Positions 10,801 to 59,070 of a stretch of 64,000 nt of DNA are shown in pieces. The stretch is from Brachyhypopomus gauderio (Eukaryota; Chordata; Actinopteri; Gymnotiformes; Hypopomidae). Under the pieces are notes generated by a model. That model was not told the DNA's origin. It worked only from the letters and a program-made list of their open reading frames with translations, and ran no database searches. Every line of letters starts with the position of its first letter. The stretch's first letter is position 1. The stretch covers positions 7,201,293 through 7,265,292 of the forward strand of contig NC_135220.1 in NCBI RefSeq assembly GCF_052324685.1, written 5' to 3'. The translations under genes were made by a program, and so were the position numbers.

Positions 10801-12039
10801 TGATTGGTTCATTGTGGCTGCTTCGACATGCTGTTGTGAAGTAACATTGAAATTACATTTTTCATAGATGGATATAGCCACGTGACAACGTTATCATAGC
10901 CATGTGACCACATTAACATCATGTCCCATGTGTCTGTGCAAATTTAATGAGCTCAGAGCGTGCATGGAGAGCCTCGTGCTGCTGTGCACAGCTGGAAACT
11001 CTGCCCAGCAACAACGCACAAGTGAAACGCCATACGGTAAGAACAGAACTCTTCTGTGAAATCATATAATGAGGCCGTCCCCCAGTTGAGCCAGGAACCT
11101 GTCCTGAGTGCGGATTCAAGGCCTGGTCAGACTCATCACAGTGAACCATTCAGAGTCCACTCGAGTGTGATGCAATTTACATTAATACCACAGTCTCTGA
11201 ACAAAAGTAAAATTGAGGTTACTTCCACAAGGTAAGCTCTGCTTAATCAAAATCAATGTGGGCTGGTTCTACCTGTAAACATGTAGTTGCATACATACAC
11301 ATGTGCGAACACACACACACGTGCAGACACACACCTGTACAGTCTTCACTTGCTGGGTCTGCAGAGGTGAGGAGGACCCCAGCAGCTGGCTGGCAGAGCT
11401 CACAGCCTGCACGCCAATCACAGACTTCAGTTCTGCCCTGGCCCCGGATGTCACCACCTTGAACTGCTGCGGCTGGGCGACGGCGTCCACCGAGCCCTGA
11501 GACGTGGCCGGTTTGCTCCAGTTGTGAGGCAGCGCCAACACGACCGGCTGCCCCGTTTTACTCAAACCGGTGACTAATAGTTTGTGGCCTTCCTGCTTTA
11601 GGACAGTGGTGCCCAGAGGCTTGCCCTCCGAGGCCGGGGAGGCAGCCACCTTGTTGAGGATTAGCTGGTGGTTGGCTGGGAGCGTGAGCGGGACAGAGAG
11701 CTTAGGGATACTCTGTCCCGCAGCGGGACTGCTGGGTTTGGCGGTGGGCTTAAGGTCGGCGGAGGAAGACGAGGCGAGAAGAAGCTGTGTCCCAGAGCTG
11801 ATTCGGCACAGAGTCGAGTCTGTGGTGGTGGAGGTGGTCAGAGCTTGGGTCTTCTGCGTTGGCGAACACAAGCTGACAATTTCAGGCACCTCCGTTTCCA
11901 TAGGAACGTGAGGCGGCTGGGGCTGACAGTGGGTGGATGGTGTTGGGGGCTCAGAGGGGTCTTCCTCCATTGCGATGGCCTCCGTGTCCATGATCTCATC
12001 GGGGAGGATGCTGTTCAGATCAGGCGACACCACATCCAT
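6031..12039 (-). CDS. lin54: LIN54, DREAM/MuvB complex DNA-binding subunit, complete coding region
   Basis: Thirteen minus-strand coding exons: 12039-11335, 10479-10362, 9980-9847, 9382-9236, 9038-8828, 8486-8413, 8188-7991, 7846-7755, 7455-7384, 7195-7093, 6957-6820, 6651-6449, 6229-6031. They total 2394 nt, exactly 797 codons plus TAA; human LIN54 has 749 residues. The ATG ([15 protein letters not shown]) is in good context (GAGGATGG). The N-terminal two thirds are Ser/Thr/Pro/Gln-rich. Two cysteine-rich CXC (tesmin/TSO1) domains follow at about residues 570-610 ([20 protein letters not shown]) and 640-685 ([18 protein letters not shown]), each keeping the Tyr (LKLYC, LKNYC) known to contact DNA. 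The C-terminus (EEFGRC) is the helical MuvB-interacting tail. LIN54 binds CHR promoter elements and tethers MuvB to cell-cycle genes in the nucleus. A copy of the exon-2/intron-2 border lies at 21400-22038. Confidence 0.96.
7855..7980. repeat. CA microsatellites in lin54 intron
   Basis: A (CA)n run at about 7853-7882 and a second (CA)n run followed by GACA repeats at about 7941-7978 lie between the lin54 exons at 7755-7846 and 7991-8188. The first begins only a few bases upstream of the acceptor of the 7846-7755 exon. Confidence 0.9.
8725..8816. repeat. Composite AT / CATA / GTGT microsatellite in lin54 intron
   Basis: (TA)n from about 8727 to 8745 passes into (CATA)n to about 8769 and then a GT/GC alternating stretch up to 8816. 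It ends about a dozen bases from the donor of the exon at 8828-9038. Confidence 0.85.
9534..9650 (-). mobile_element. 3' tail of a dispersed fish retroelement in lin54 intron
   Basis: The block containing AAAGCTGCTTTGTGACAACA followed by GAAAAGCGCTATACAAATAA is a tail that recurs across fish genomes next to LINE/SINE insertions. No ORF remains. Family and orientation are inferred from memory of similar repeats. Confidence 0.45.
10941..11576. other. Source segment of the duplication found at 21400-22038
   Basis: This 636-bp segment spans 242 nt of the end of the large lin54 coding exon (11335-11576) and the first 394 nt of the following intron, including the donor CAG/GTGTGT. An almost identical 639-bp copy is present 10.5 kb away in the same orientation, inside a decayed Tc1 transposon. 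The functional copy is this one, because it reads in frame with the rest of lin54. Confidence 0.93.
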
Positions 12040-12066
12040 CCTCACAGGCACTCTACAGACTCCTCA

Positions 12067-18462: not shown

Positions 18463-20349
18463 CAGGGGTCAGCAACCTTTGAGACATGGAGTGCCAACTT
18501 TAACATTTTTAGTCAATGAGTGTGCCGGGGGGGGGGGGGGGGGGGCACTTTTCAAATCTGGAACACAGTGCAACATTAATTTTCGTCAGGTAAATGTTCC
18601 TTCGCCTGTTATTGAGGGGTGTTTCTTTATACTACCACATATCATTTCGGACAACACTGCAAAGAATGTGACGGCGTAAGTATAAACGCCTCCGCCGTTC
18701 GCGCAGGTTCACTCGAGGTGTGCGGAGTCACTTTCGAGTATAATCCATAATAAGTAATCTATGGAGTCAAATTAGGGTCTTTAATGGTGACGAAAAAATA
18801 ATAATATCGCAAATATAAGATTAGCATTTTGCATTTTACGTTCCTAATTTGTTTCTGCAATACTTTCCCTCTTTTGCGTTTCTTTCTTTTCTTTGTGCTT
18901 CACATTTTATTTTGCTGCTTTTTTTTGCAATACTTTCTCCCTTTTGCGTTTCTTTCTTTTGTTTGCGCGTCATTGCTTTTCTTTGCGTCTCGCATTTTAC
19001 GTTCATAATTTTTTTTTGTGCTTCTCTCTTTTCTTTGCTCCGGTTTTACCCTCTGTGTGGGGGCGGGGAAAGAGGCGTGGCCAAGAGCAAAAGGCGTACT
19101 ATGAATGTTCAGCGTCAGTTCAGCTTCCTTCCACTCGCTGAACTGAACTGCTGTTGCAGCGCATCTGGTGTTAAAGGAAGAGAGAGGTTGGGTGTGTGCG
19201 AGGTGGTGGCGCATTTCAGGGCATTGTTTTTATTCGCTCAGGTTTTCAAAAGATCATTTCAAACCGACCTCAGTAAAATGTTAATAATAATAATAATAAT
19301 ATATTTTTTTTAAACGAAGTTTTAAAAGGGCACTTTCGTTGATAAAGGGCAGAGTTGGTGGTGCTTTAGCACCTGATGTCTATGTCTGCACGCATATACC
19401 TGTGGTCCAGCTGGGCGACCGTCTGCCATGATACCGAGGATACCAGTAACCAAATTGCCGCTGTGTGACGGTTCAACTGATGACGCTGAACGTTCACAGC
19501 ACGCCTTTCGCTCTTGGCCACGCCTCTTTCCCGGCCCCCACACAGAGGGTAAAACCGGAGCAAAGAAAAGAGAGAAGCACAAAAAAAAATTATGAACGTA
19601 AAATGCGAGACGCAAAGAAAAGCAGTGACGCGCAAACAAAAGAAAGAAACGCAAAAGGGAGAAAGTATTGCAAAAAAAAGCAGCAACATAAAATGTGAAG
19701 CGCAAAGAAAAGAAAGAAACGCAAAAGAGGGAAAGTATTGCAGAAACAAATTAGGAACGTAAAATGCAAAATGCTAATCTTATATTTGCGATATTATTAT
19801 TATTTTTGTCACCATTAAAGACCCTAATTTGACTCCATAGTAATCCAGCCTTGACGTGGCTCAGGGATTACGTCACACGCAGCGCCGTACGGCCGTAGTG
19901 CCTGTAAATAAAAAATTGAATGGTCCAATGAAGGTAATTTAAAAAGCAGCACATTTCCTCACTTAAAAAAAACCCTGGACAGGACGTGAAATACGGACAT
20001 GTCCCGGGAAGTACGGACGTTTAAGCCTTGTTTATACTTTCGCGAGCAGGGGCGCAGATGGCACTGGGGACGGGGGGACATGTCCCCTCCAGATTTATAT
20101 TGACCCCATCTGAAATCTAGCATCTACAAGCATAAACGTATATATTGTAGCCTACAGCTTGGTCCCCCTCACTTCAGAATTTCCATCTGCGTCCATGTTC
20201 GCGAGTGACCGTAGCGCTTGACTCCGCCCACCTCGCGCGAACGGTGGAGGCGTTTTATACTTTCCGCGTCACATTCTTTGTTTTGCTGATGCTGGTCCAG
20301 CGTGGCGCGAGCCAGCAGTGGCACGCGTGCCATAGGTTGCCGACCCCTG
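18463..20349. mobile_element. hAT-like nonautonomous element (CAGGGGTC...GACCCCTG) containing a nested foldback element
   Basis: The ends CAGGGGTCAGCAACCT and AGGTTGCCGACCCCTG are inverted repeats with one mismatch. The flanks GTATATAT (18455-18462) and GTTTATAT (20350-20357) match at 7 of 8 positions, as expected of an aged 8-bp hAT duplication. No transposase ORF is present. A G-run at about 18526-18545 lies near the left end. A second, partial copy of the family is at about 36430-36900, ending in the same TTGCCGACCCCTG. The nested element at 18761-19838 supplies most of the length. Confidence 0.8.
18761..19838. mobile_element. Foldback element: two inverted arms of about 350 bp around a 380-bp centre
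   Basis: The left arm (18761 to about 19112) begins ATGGAGTCAAATTAGGGTCT and its reverse complement AGACCCTAATTTGACTCCAT ends the right arm (about 19496-19838). The arms are highly similar, so they give near-identical translations on opposite strands (MFLQYFPSFAFLSFLCASHF in both), which is an effect of the inverted repeat, not evidence of a protein. Flanks AGTAATCT (18753-18760) and AGTAATCC (19839-19846) are a probable 8-bp target duplication with one difference. The arms are rich in the word CTTTTGCGTTTCTTTCTTTT, repeated within each arm. Confidence 0.85.
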
Positions 20350-20569
20350 GTTTATATAATGGACGATACGTCACCATTGACTCCCATTGTGAATATTTGA
20401 AGCTACCAGCGTCATGGACGCTACCATCTTGGATGCACTTGCGCAGTAGATGAAAATTGGAGCCAGAGCATGCGCATTAGAACCGGTAGGCAGGACAGTA
20501 TCTCCGCCCCAACTCTGATCACATTCGTTAGGATATAAATTCAAAGTTTATGTTTTTTTTTTATTTAAA

Positions 20570-22661
20570 ATAATTTTCTAATTTAAACTTTGCTTTTGTC
20601 AAAGAATGCTCCCTTAGCAGCAATTACAGCATTGCAGACCTTTGGCATTCTAGCTGTTAATTTGCTGAGGTAATCTGGAGAAATTTCACCCCATGCTTCC
20701 AGAAGCCGCTCCCACAAGTTTGATTGGGTTAATGGGCACTTTTTTCGTACCATACGGTCAAGCTGCTCCCACAACAGCTCAATGGGGTTGAGATCTGGTG
20801 ACTGCGCTGGCCACTCCATTACCGATGGAGTCTGCCTGCTTCTTCTCTAAATAGTTTGTGCATAATTTGGAGGTATGCTTTGGGTCATTGTCCTGTTGCA
20901 GGATGAAATGGGCTCCAATCAAGCGCTGTCCACAGGGTATGGCATGGTGTTGCAAAATGGAGTGATAGCCTTCCTTATTCAAAATCCCTTCTACCTTGTT
21001 CAAATCTCCCACTTTACCAGCACCAAAGCAACCCCAGACCATCACATTACCTCCACCATGTTTGACAGATGGTGTCAGGCACTCTTCCAGCATCTTTTCA
21101 GTTGTTCTGTGTCTCACAAATGTTGGTCTGTGTGATCCAAAAACCTCAAACTTTGATTCATCTGTCCATAACACTTTTTTCCAATCTTCCTCTGTCTAAT
21201 GTCTGTGTTCTTTTGCCCATATTAATCTTTTTCTTTTATTAGCCAGATATGGCTTTTTCTTTGCCACTCTGCCCTGAAGGCCAGCATCCCGGAGTCGCCT
21301 CTTCACTGTAGACGTTGACACTGGCATTTTGCAGGTACTATTTAATGAAGCTGCCAGTTGAGGACCTGTGAGGCGTTGATTTCTCAAACTGGAGACTCTA
21401 ATTTAATGAGCTCAGAGCGTGCATGGAGAGCCTCGTGCTGCTGTGCACAGCTGGAAACTCTGCCCAGCAACAACGCACAAGTGAAACGCCATACGGTAAG
21501 AACAGAACTCTTCTGTGAAATCATATAATGAGGCTGTCCCCCAGTTGAGCCAGGAACCTGTCCTGAGTGCGGACTCAAGGCCTGGTCAGACTCATCACAG
21601 TGAACCATTCAGAGTCCACTCGAGTCTGATGCTATTTACATTTATACCACAGAGTCTCTGAACAAAAGTAAAATTGAGGTTACTTCCACAAGGTAAGCTT
21701 TGCTTAATCAAAATCAATGTGGGCTGGTTCTACCTGTAAACATGTAGTTGCATACATACACATGTGCGAACACACACACACGTGCAGACACACACCTGTA
21801 CAGTCTTCACTTGCTGGGTCTGCAGGGGGTGAGGAGGACCCCAGCAGCTGGCTGGCAGAGCTCACAGTCTGCACGCCAATCACAGACTTCAGTTCTGCCC
21901 TGGCCCCGGATGTCACCACCTTGAACTGCTGCGGCTGGGCGACGGCGTCCACCGAGCCCTGAGACGTGGCCGGTTTGCTCCAGTTGTGAGGCAGCGCCAA
22001 CACGACCGGCTGCCCCGTTTTACTCAGACCGGTGACTACTTGTCTTCTTGCTCAGTTGTGCAGCGGGGCCACTTCTCCTCCTTCTCTGGTTAGAGCCTGT
22101 CTGTGCTCTCCTCTGAAGGGAGTAGTACACACCATTGTAGGAAACCTTCAGTTTCTTGGCAATGTCTCGCATGAAATAGACTTCATTTCTCAGAACAAGA
22201 ATAGACTGTCGAGTTTTAATTGAAAGTTGTTTTTTTTTTCTGGCCATTTTCTGAGTTTAATCGAACCAACAATTGTAATGCTCCAGATTCTCAACTAGCT
22301 CAAAGGAAGGTCAGTTTTATAGCTTCTCTAATCAGCAAAACTGTTTTCAGCTGTGCTAACCTACTTGCACAAGGGTTTTCAAGGGTTTTCAAAATATCCG
22401 ATATAGCCTCCTTACAGAGTTAGCAAACACAATGTACCATTAGAACACTGGAGTGATGGTTGTTGGAAATGGGTCTCCATACATCTATGTAGATATTGCA
22501 TTAAAAACCAGATGTTTACAGCTAGAATAGTCATTTACCACATTAATAATGTATAGAGTGTATTTTTGATGCATTTAATGTTAGCTAAATTGAAAATAAA
22601 ACTGCTTTTCTTTCAAAAATAAGAACATTTCTAAGTGACCCCAAACTTTTGAACGGTAGTG
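20570..22661 (-). mobile_element. Decayed Tc1-like transposon interrupted by a lin54 fragment
   Basis: Minus-strand pieces of one Tc1 transposase are visible in order: MARKKKQLSIKTRQSILVLR and a paired-type helix-turn-helix at about 22247-22040; LRNQRLTGPQLAASLN and TVKRRLRDAGLQGRVAKKKP at 21390-21200; [26 protein letters not shown] and [19 protein letters not shown] at 21180-20760, then the C-terminus to about 20585. The DDE motifs can still be read, but frameshifts and the 639-bp insert at 21400-22038 break the gene. The 5' terminal repeat is present (CCAAACTTTTGAACGGTAGTG ending at 22661, followed by TA). I cannot find its partner at the other end, so that side is probably deleted. Confidence 0.9.
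21400..22038. pseudogene. lin54: Partial lin54 copy (exon-2 end, donor and intron 2) inserted in a Tc1 transposon
   Basis: This segment aligns end to end with 10941-11576 in the same orientation. By eye I count nine or ten substitutions plus two small insertions, about 98% identity. The copied exon part has gained one G (GCAGGGGGTGAGG against GCAGAGGTGAGG), shifting the frame near the donor, and there are no other lin54 exons nearby, so it is a nonfunctional fragment. Both borders fall inside Tc1 transposase codons: the left joint shares AAT and the right joint shares TA between lin54 and Tc1 sequence. There is no target duplication and no poly(A), which argues against retroposition. Confidence 0.92.
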
Positions 22662-22663
22662 TA

Positions 22664-23199
22664 TATACGGTCTCTGCTCCACACACACAGAGCTCCGTTA
22701 CAGATAGTGTCAAATTTATGGAATTGAAGTTGGGGTTGTAATAAACATATGTGAGACTTTGAACGACCTATATTGGTTTTCATTGCACTTTAAATTTATT
22801 TTAATGTGCTACTGTGCTTTAAAGCTCTAGCTTGTCGTTAAGAATTAAAGGAAGATCCTGACCAAAAGGTGAAAAACTTCTGTTTTGTCCAGAAGTGCGC
22901 CCTCTAGCGTTGCGCAGTCAATTTTCTTCAGGGATACATACTTACAATAAAGCCGCACATAAACCGGTTACTTCTCATTTCATCCATACACCTGGTGTAT
23001 TTATTTCCAAGCCATTGCACGGGTACTGACAAAAGTTTAGAAGAAACGAAAGGAGAAACTTGTCGTCCATACGTGTATGAACCTCTATATTTACAGACGT
23101 CAGTAGGACTTGGAGGACTGATCCACGGTGATCTCGGGCACACACGAGACCCTCTTGGTTTAAATCGAAGTCGTTGACGTTGATTTGTTTTCGAGGAAA
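22664..23199 (+). promoter_or_regulatory. cops4: cops4 upstream region and probable promoter
   Basis: This 0.5-kb stretch lies between the old Tc1 element and the cops4 start codon. It has no recognised coding block. The last part, about 22890-23199, is richer in CpG, and the start codon context GAGGAAAATGGCG resembles many housekeeping genes. No TATA box is obvious near the start. The transcription start is not determined. Confidence 0.35.
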
Positions 23200-52198: not shown

Positions 52199-53816
<1,618 letters not shown>

Positions 53817-58530: not shown

Positions 58531-59070
58531 GTTAGAGGATCAGAACACATGAAGTTTCTCTTTCTCTGGTTTCGGCTCTGGGGTTTACACCTCAGTCTAT
58601 GTGTCTGAGCAAGCATACATCCTGTTCTGGTCACAATAGCATCTCCAGTCGTAACAGTGGGCACTTTTGATGGTCTGAAATCCCACGTGACGAGACAGTC
58701 CCCTCATGGACATGCACCCGGTTCGACTGCTGATTGGCGGCTGCCTGCCCAGATTATCTTCCAAGCATAATAAACGTGCTCTTTCACTTGTGTGTAATGA
58801 AGTAATGGCCTGACCCTCAGTGCCCTGCTGTTTTGACTGACAGCATGCGAAATGCAGGCAGACCATAGTATATTAAACACGAGCATAGTGTTTGGCTACA
58901 AGGACTGTAACCCAACACAGTGGTTTGTCTTGGCAGGGCTTCAAAGGCTTGCCTGGTGTGCGACAAAGGGCTTCATTCTTCTAGCCATAAGCTGCTTTCC
59001 AGTGAGGCTCTCAAGGACTTGTAGGTGCAGTGAGCACTTTGGTGGCTGCTGGGCTCCTGGAGGGGAAGCA
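58531..59070. other. Gene-free stretch
   Basis: No conserved coding block, transposon end or repeat array is recognised here. It lies between the hAT remnant and the G-rich minisatellite. Confidence 0.4.

Follow-up and report, generated by a model that had tools for sequence, protein, structure and literature searches.

In the available part of the report on class 2 templated insertions (PMC5110952), such insertions are described as keeping their donor, lacking a target duplication and poly(A), and showing microhomology and microdeletion at their joints. Among end-joining scars in human cells, 31 of the 63 inserts of at least 45 bp were partial duplications of neighboring sequence, and microhomology-mediated template switching was proposed in the excerpt available (PMC5087911). 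The captures in maize Ds, as presented in the accessible text of PMC3260210, place exon and intron inside a cut-and-paste DNA transposon. Finally, the available text on short-range template switching (PMC7954356) explains a cluster of changes by one local inverted copy. No fish Tc1 element with a captured gene piece was found in the searched literature, as far as the available portions of those sources go; this is no proof of absence. How, then, does a piece of lin54 that lies inside a Tc1 element of Brachyhypopomus gauderio compare with these systems?

The stretch of DNA that was analyzed (the window, 64,000 nucleotides; C10:7201293-7265292) belongs to a 797-Mb assembly of 840 contigs. The original prediction held that a 639-bp segment inside the Tc1 element was about 98% identical to lin54 at 10941-11576, in the same orientation. 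Self-BLASTN of the window and a base-by-base alignment bore this out: 10941-11576 and 21400-22038 (the latter with the overlap bases AAT and TA counted in) matched on the plus strand of the comparison at 98.12% identity over 639 columns, with nine mismatches and two gap openings. Chance cannot be the origin of this likeness. The source, read on the minus strand, comprises the end of a lin54 coding exon (approximately 11335-11576) and the start of the next intron (approximately 10941-11334); the boundary between them was placed by eye from the reading frame and a CAG/gtgtg donor. In the copy, also read on the minus strand, the exon part occupies approximately 21796-22038. The donor lin54 DNA is still in place on the same contig, about 10.5 kb from the copy and in the same orientation. 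The copy does not look like a processed pseudogene or a LINE-mediated insertion: its exon-intron boundary is unspliced and the intron is kept, and, in agreement with the earlier claim, neither a target duplication nor poly(A) was seen at 21400-22038 in the self-comparison or the base-by-base alignment.

The lin54 gene runs on the minus strand. Its downstream exon at 6715-6975 matches PDB entry 5fd3 (‘Protein lin-54 homolog’, E = 3.5e-29) and the Pfam family TCR (PF03638). The copied exon, which sits in a 264-aa frame at 11269-12063 (minus strand), gave sub-threshold Pfam matches only; from its position and from what is known of LIN54, we take it to be part of the same gene. The source frame is open, and the copy carries one extra G near the donor site that shifts the frame there. 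Four of the 11 differences inside the insert fall within 26 bp, a clustering with a probability of 0.057.

The host element is divided by the insert into two parts, both delimited by alignment to fetched Tc1 copies, both on the minus strand and both colinear with the family. The left part (20550-21402) holds the 3' part of the transposase frame; the right part (22037-22664) holds its 5' part, with a start codon near 22247, and the right terminal inverted repeat. The first look for relatives drew on the best 40 of 705 candidates for the left part and the best 40 of 1032 for the right. In one fetched copy, L035, the frame is intact (349 aa from stop to stop) and carries the Pfam domains HTH_Tnp_Tc3_2 and DDE_3, which places the host family in Tc1/mariner; a 138-aa piece of the window copy gave no Pfam match when it was searched alone. 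In 17 of the 19 other aligned copies, the left end reaches out to the inverted repeat, about 130 bp further than in the window copy, in which Tc1 similarity begins at 20550 and the left terminal inverted repeat is missing. The original prediction had overlooked this loss.

Both joints carry short overlaps. At the left joint, AAT (21400-21402) is common to Tc1 and lin54 and continues into lin54; at the right joint, lin54 leaves through TA (22037-22038), again common to both, into CTTGTC. Relative to the usual empty site of the family, GACTCTAATGTACTTGTC (with A in place of G in one group), the target lacks one Tc1 base, the one that separates AAT from TA. The joint position follows residue 72 of the family transposase frame, and it is uninterrupted in 58 of the 58 other fetched Tc1 loci, which include tandem-array and near-identical copies and so represent fewer independent insertions; the joint sequences were listed for 54 loci in one comparison and for 19 in another. 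When 100,000 random insertions with one base lost were simulated, overlaps as long as these (at least 3 and at least 2 bp) arose in 1.6% of them. The AAT and TA overlaps are thus modestly above chance. Being short, and equaled by that fraction of random insertions, they may also reflect blunt end joining of the patch. From these data, the central claims of the original prediction stand: the segment entered a Tc1 that was already there, with colinear halves, the joints share AAT and TA with loss of about one Tc1 base, and they are of microhomology type with their source in the neighboring lin54.

We also searched the whole assembly for further copies. In a search that skips very common words, a 681-bp query retrieved source and copy and, beyond these, a single match of 43 bp at 88%. 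A 22-base pattern for the left joint, searched with up to two mismatches, was found at one exact place and at one place with two mismatches (L071), where the match to lin54 covers only 14 bp. For the right joint, the 21-base pattern (at most two mismatches) likewise had one exact place and one two-mismatch place (L073), and its reversed control also gave one match. Because the empty site is uninterrupted in all of the other fetched loci, each joint has one exact place and the long matches are the source and the copy alone, we conclude that the lin54 segment was added to a pre-existing Tc1 and was not amplified. Spread of the segment by transposition is accordingly rejected for this assembly. 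The element is no Pack-type mobile gene-capturing transposon either, with its left terminal inverted repeat missing and a single copy bearing the capture. For the same two reasons, there is no support for the earlier suggestion that the exon might move on.

In our judgment, the locus is very probably a germline templated insertion, in which repair of a break or fork copied nearby lin54 DNA into an existing Tc1 by microhomology. A Tc1 copy would already have been inserted between the lin54 and cops4 start codons when its transposase frame was hit by a break or a stalled fork, at the point that follows residue 72 in the family; repair would then have copied about 0.64 kb of lin54 DNA from about 10.5 kb away, and the Tc1 would have been rejoined with 3-bp and 2-bp overlaps and the loss of one base. 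The route may have been microhomology-mediated end joining or polymerase template switching (MMBIR/FoSTeS or Pol theta type); the latter is somewhat favored, since the donor is near and in the same orientation and the element bears a fold-back scar (see below). The break or fork stall, the enzyme, and the use of DNA rather than pre-mRNA as template are what we infer from the product. In that product the donor is kept, the overlaps at the two joints are short and the target has lost little; it is a real and well-preserved templated insertion of a kind already known.

In lacking a target duplication and poly(A), the insertion behaves like the class 2 events. In the available part of PMC5110952, however, the donors of these events (TSI/TSIP) are distant and measure 73-414 bp in the experimental set, whereas the lin54 segment measures 639 bp and its donor lies on the same contig at a distance of about 10.5 kb. 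Because the donor is this near, we do not class the insertion as a TSIP but treat it as one that works in a similar way. The human-cell scars, according to the accessible text of PMC5087911, include copied inserts from local donors, as in the lin54 case, and from ectopic chromosomal sequences. They were recovered with a reporter after induced breaks, often with deletions, whereas the lin54 insertion is a natural germline event with one base lost.

Might excision of the Tc1 itself have opened the gap, with incomplete repair from the sister chromatid and lin54 as filler? Gene fragments with introns in maize Ds have been ascribed to excision-break repair in the available text of PMC3260210; in contrast to those, the lin54 host is a Tc1 with one end missing, the donor is nearby and the assembly has no other copy. 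The lin54 joint adjoins a TA, so that excision of a nested element there is conceivable, but no footprint of such an element was seen by eye. TA is the target dinucleotide of Tc1/mariner elements, and Tc1 excision cuts at the element ends. Because the joint is instead internal and only one base is missing, the simple excision model fits poorly; moreover, gap repair from both ends would rarely lose a single internal base and leave both parts colinear with the family. We therefore regard excision as improbable.

An assembly error that joined lin54 sequence into the Tc1 is more doubtful still. Source and target do lie close together, but the two copies differ by nine substitutions, two indels and a frameshift, and both joints resolve exactly onto the family empty site. 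Equally hard to credit is an RNA-templated patch, in which reverse-transcribed lin54 pre-mRNA filled a break or was inserted by a LINE. The segment does lie within the transcribed part of lin54, and RNA templates have been proposed for class 2 templated insertions in the part of PMC5110952 at hand. Against a LINE-type insertion stand the retained intron and the absence of poly(A) and target duplication; as for a pre-mRNA patch, which keeps a small probability, a DNA template would suit the nearby donor and its shared orientation equally well.

A further change in the lin54-bearing Tc1 copy, which the original prediction had missed, hints at template switching. Where the family reads GATAAAACACCAGCTGCC, the window copy reads GATGGAGTCTGCC, with ten bases replaced by GGAGT; the change from AAAACACCAG to GGAGT at 20827-20831 is private to this copy. 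GGAGT and the preceding AT form the reverse complement of ACTCCAT five bases upstream, so that comparison with the family delimits a fold-back scar, ACTCCAT-TACCG-ATGGAGT, at 20813-20831. The scar pattern was found once in the assembly (up to one mismatch). Random 5-mers at this site would yield a primed fold-back in 0.8% of cases, by a test made after the scar was seen. In a search of the window for an alternative template, there was no 11- or 12-base match and one 10-base match, at 58854. One local inverted copy would account for the cluster, as in PMC7954356; the available text of that work uses a pair-HMM test, whereas the present scar was judged by eye and with a small simulation. Clusters of at least three substitutions also occur in three of the 17 other copies (L038, L048 and L062; L005 and L007 end early), and the scar therefore need not belong to the lin54 event.

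Within 45 bp of the right joint, the copy also has two substitutions and a deletion of 4 bp. The lin54 patch, the fold-back about 570 bp away, these changes and perhaps the loss of the left end might all stem from serial template switches in one germline replication-repair episode, a reading that we consider unlikely. If it were true, transposon copies would record whole multi-switch repair tracts, readable against known pre-event sequence. A break hotspot near the joint was considered as well, as several fetched copies end or change near 22055-22150; it was dropped, for both queries ended at the joint and so biased the sample.

The order of events follows from the nesting: the Tc1 came first and the lin54 segment second. 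The window copy differs from the majority of 17 other copies by 16 substitutions in 828 positions on the left and by nine in 599 on the right, and the insert differs from its source at nine of about 636. These 17 come from the 19 aligned copies, with L043 and L056 omitted as near-duplicates of L039 and L048; the right-half values of L005 and L007 are meaningless, as both end early. If both copies changed at the same rate, the Tc1 insertion is the older of the two events (0.011), and the value becomes 0.03-0.04 if the scar is counted once or omitted. If all changes are assigned to the insert, the ages are indistinguishable (0.37-0.55). The copies were chosen by their similarity to the window copy, which makes the comparison a rough one.

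The genes lin54 and cops4 are divergent, and the interval between their start codons holds the Tc1. From the end of the lin54 piece it is about 1.2 kb downstream to the cops4 start codon (23200, plus strand). A fusion gene was considered and rejected from both sides: the frame from the Tc1 start runs over the right joint and meets a stop no more than a few lin54-derived codons later, and the lin54 frame, followed upstream into the Tc1 part, is closed there. Judged from its sequence, the product looks inert, with an interrupted transposase, a frameshifted exon copy and one transposon end missing. The lin54 gene itself retains the exon, and this single case appears to alter no gene.

Its value lies in the high copy number of the Tc1 family, which supplies the pre-insertion sequence, and this makes it possible to read the joints, the lost base and the mutations close by with no need of an outgroup. 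If Tc1 copies were scanned across the genome for single-copy inserts, patch frequency and donor distance could be gauged. Another Tc1 copy (L006:2360-2925) contains about 570 bp of other sequence, some 20-40 bp away from where the lin54 joint lies in the window copy. On C31, at approximately 1.28-1.38 Mb and 2.83-2.84 Mb (L016-L033), the left part of the Tc1 repeats at steps of about 3.6 kb, as would be seen if a truncated copy belonged to an array of tandem repeats. Within the window, a short dispersed repeat at 20350-20536 lies beside the truncated Tc1 end (many copies at 87-94% among the best 40 of 3736 candidates), and a 360-bp inverted repeat (18759-19117 and 19481-19840, 97% identity, about 360 bp apart) lies just outside the Tc1. 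A 348-aa open frame at 52421-53464 (minus strand) resembles, by eye, another Tc1-type transposase.
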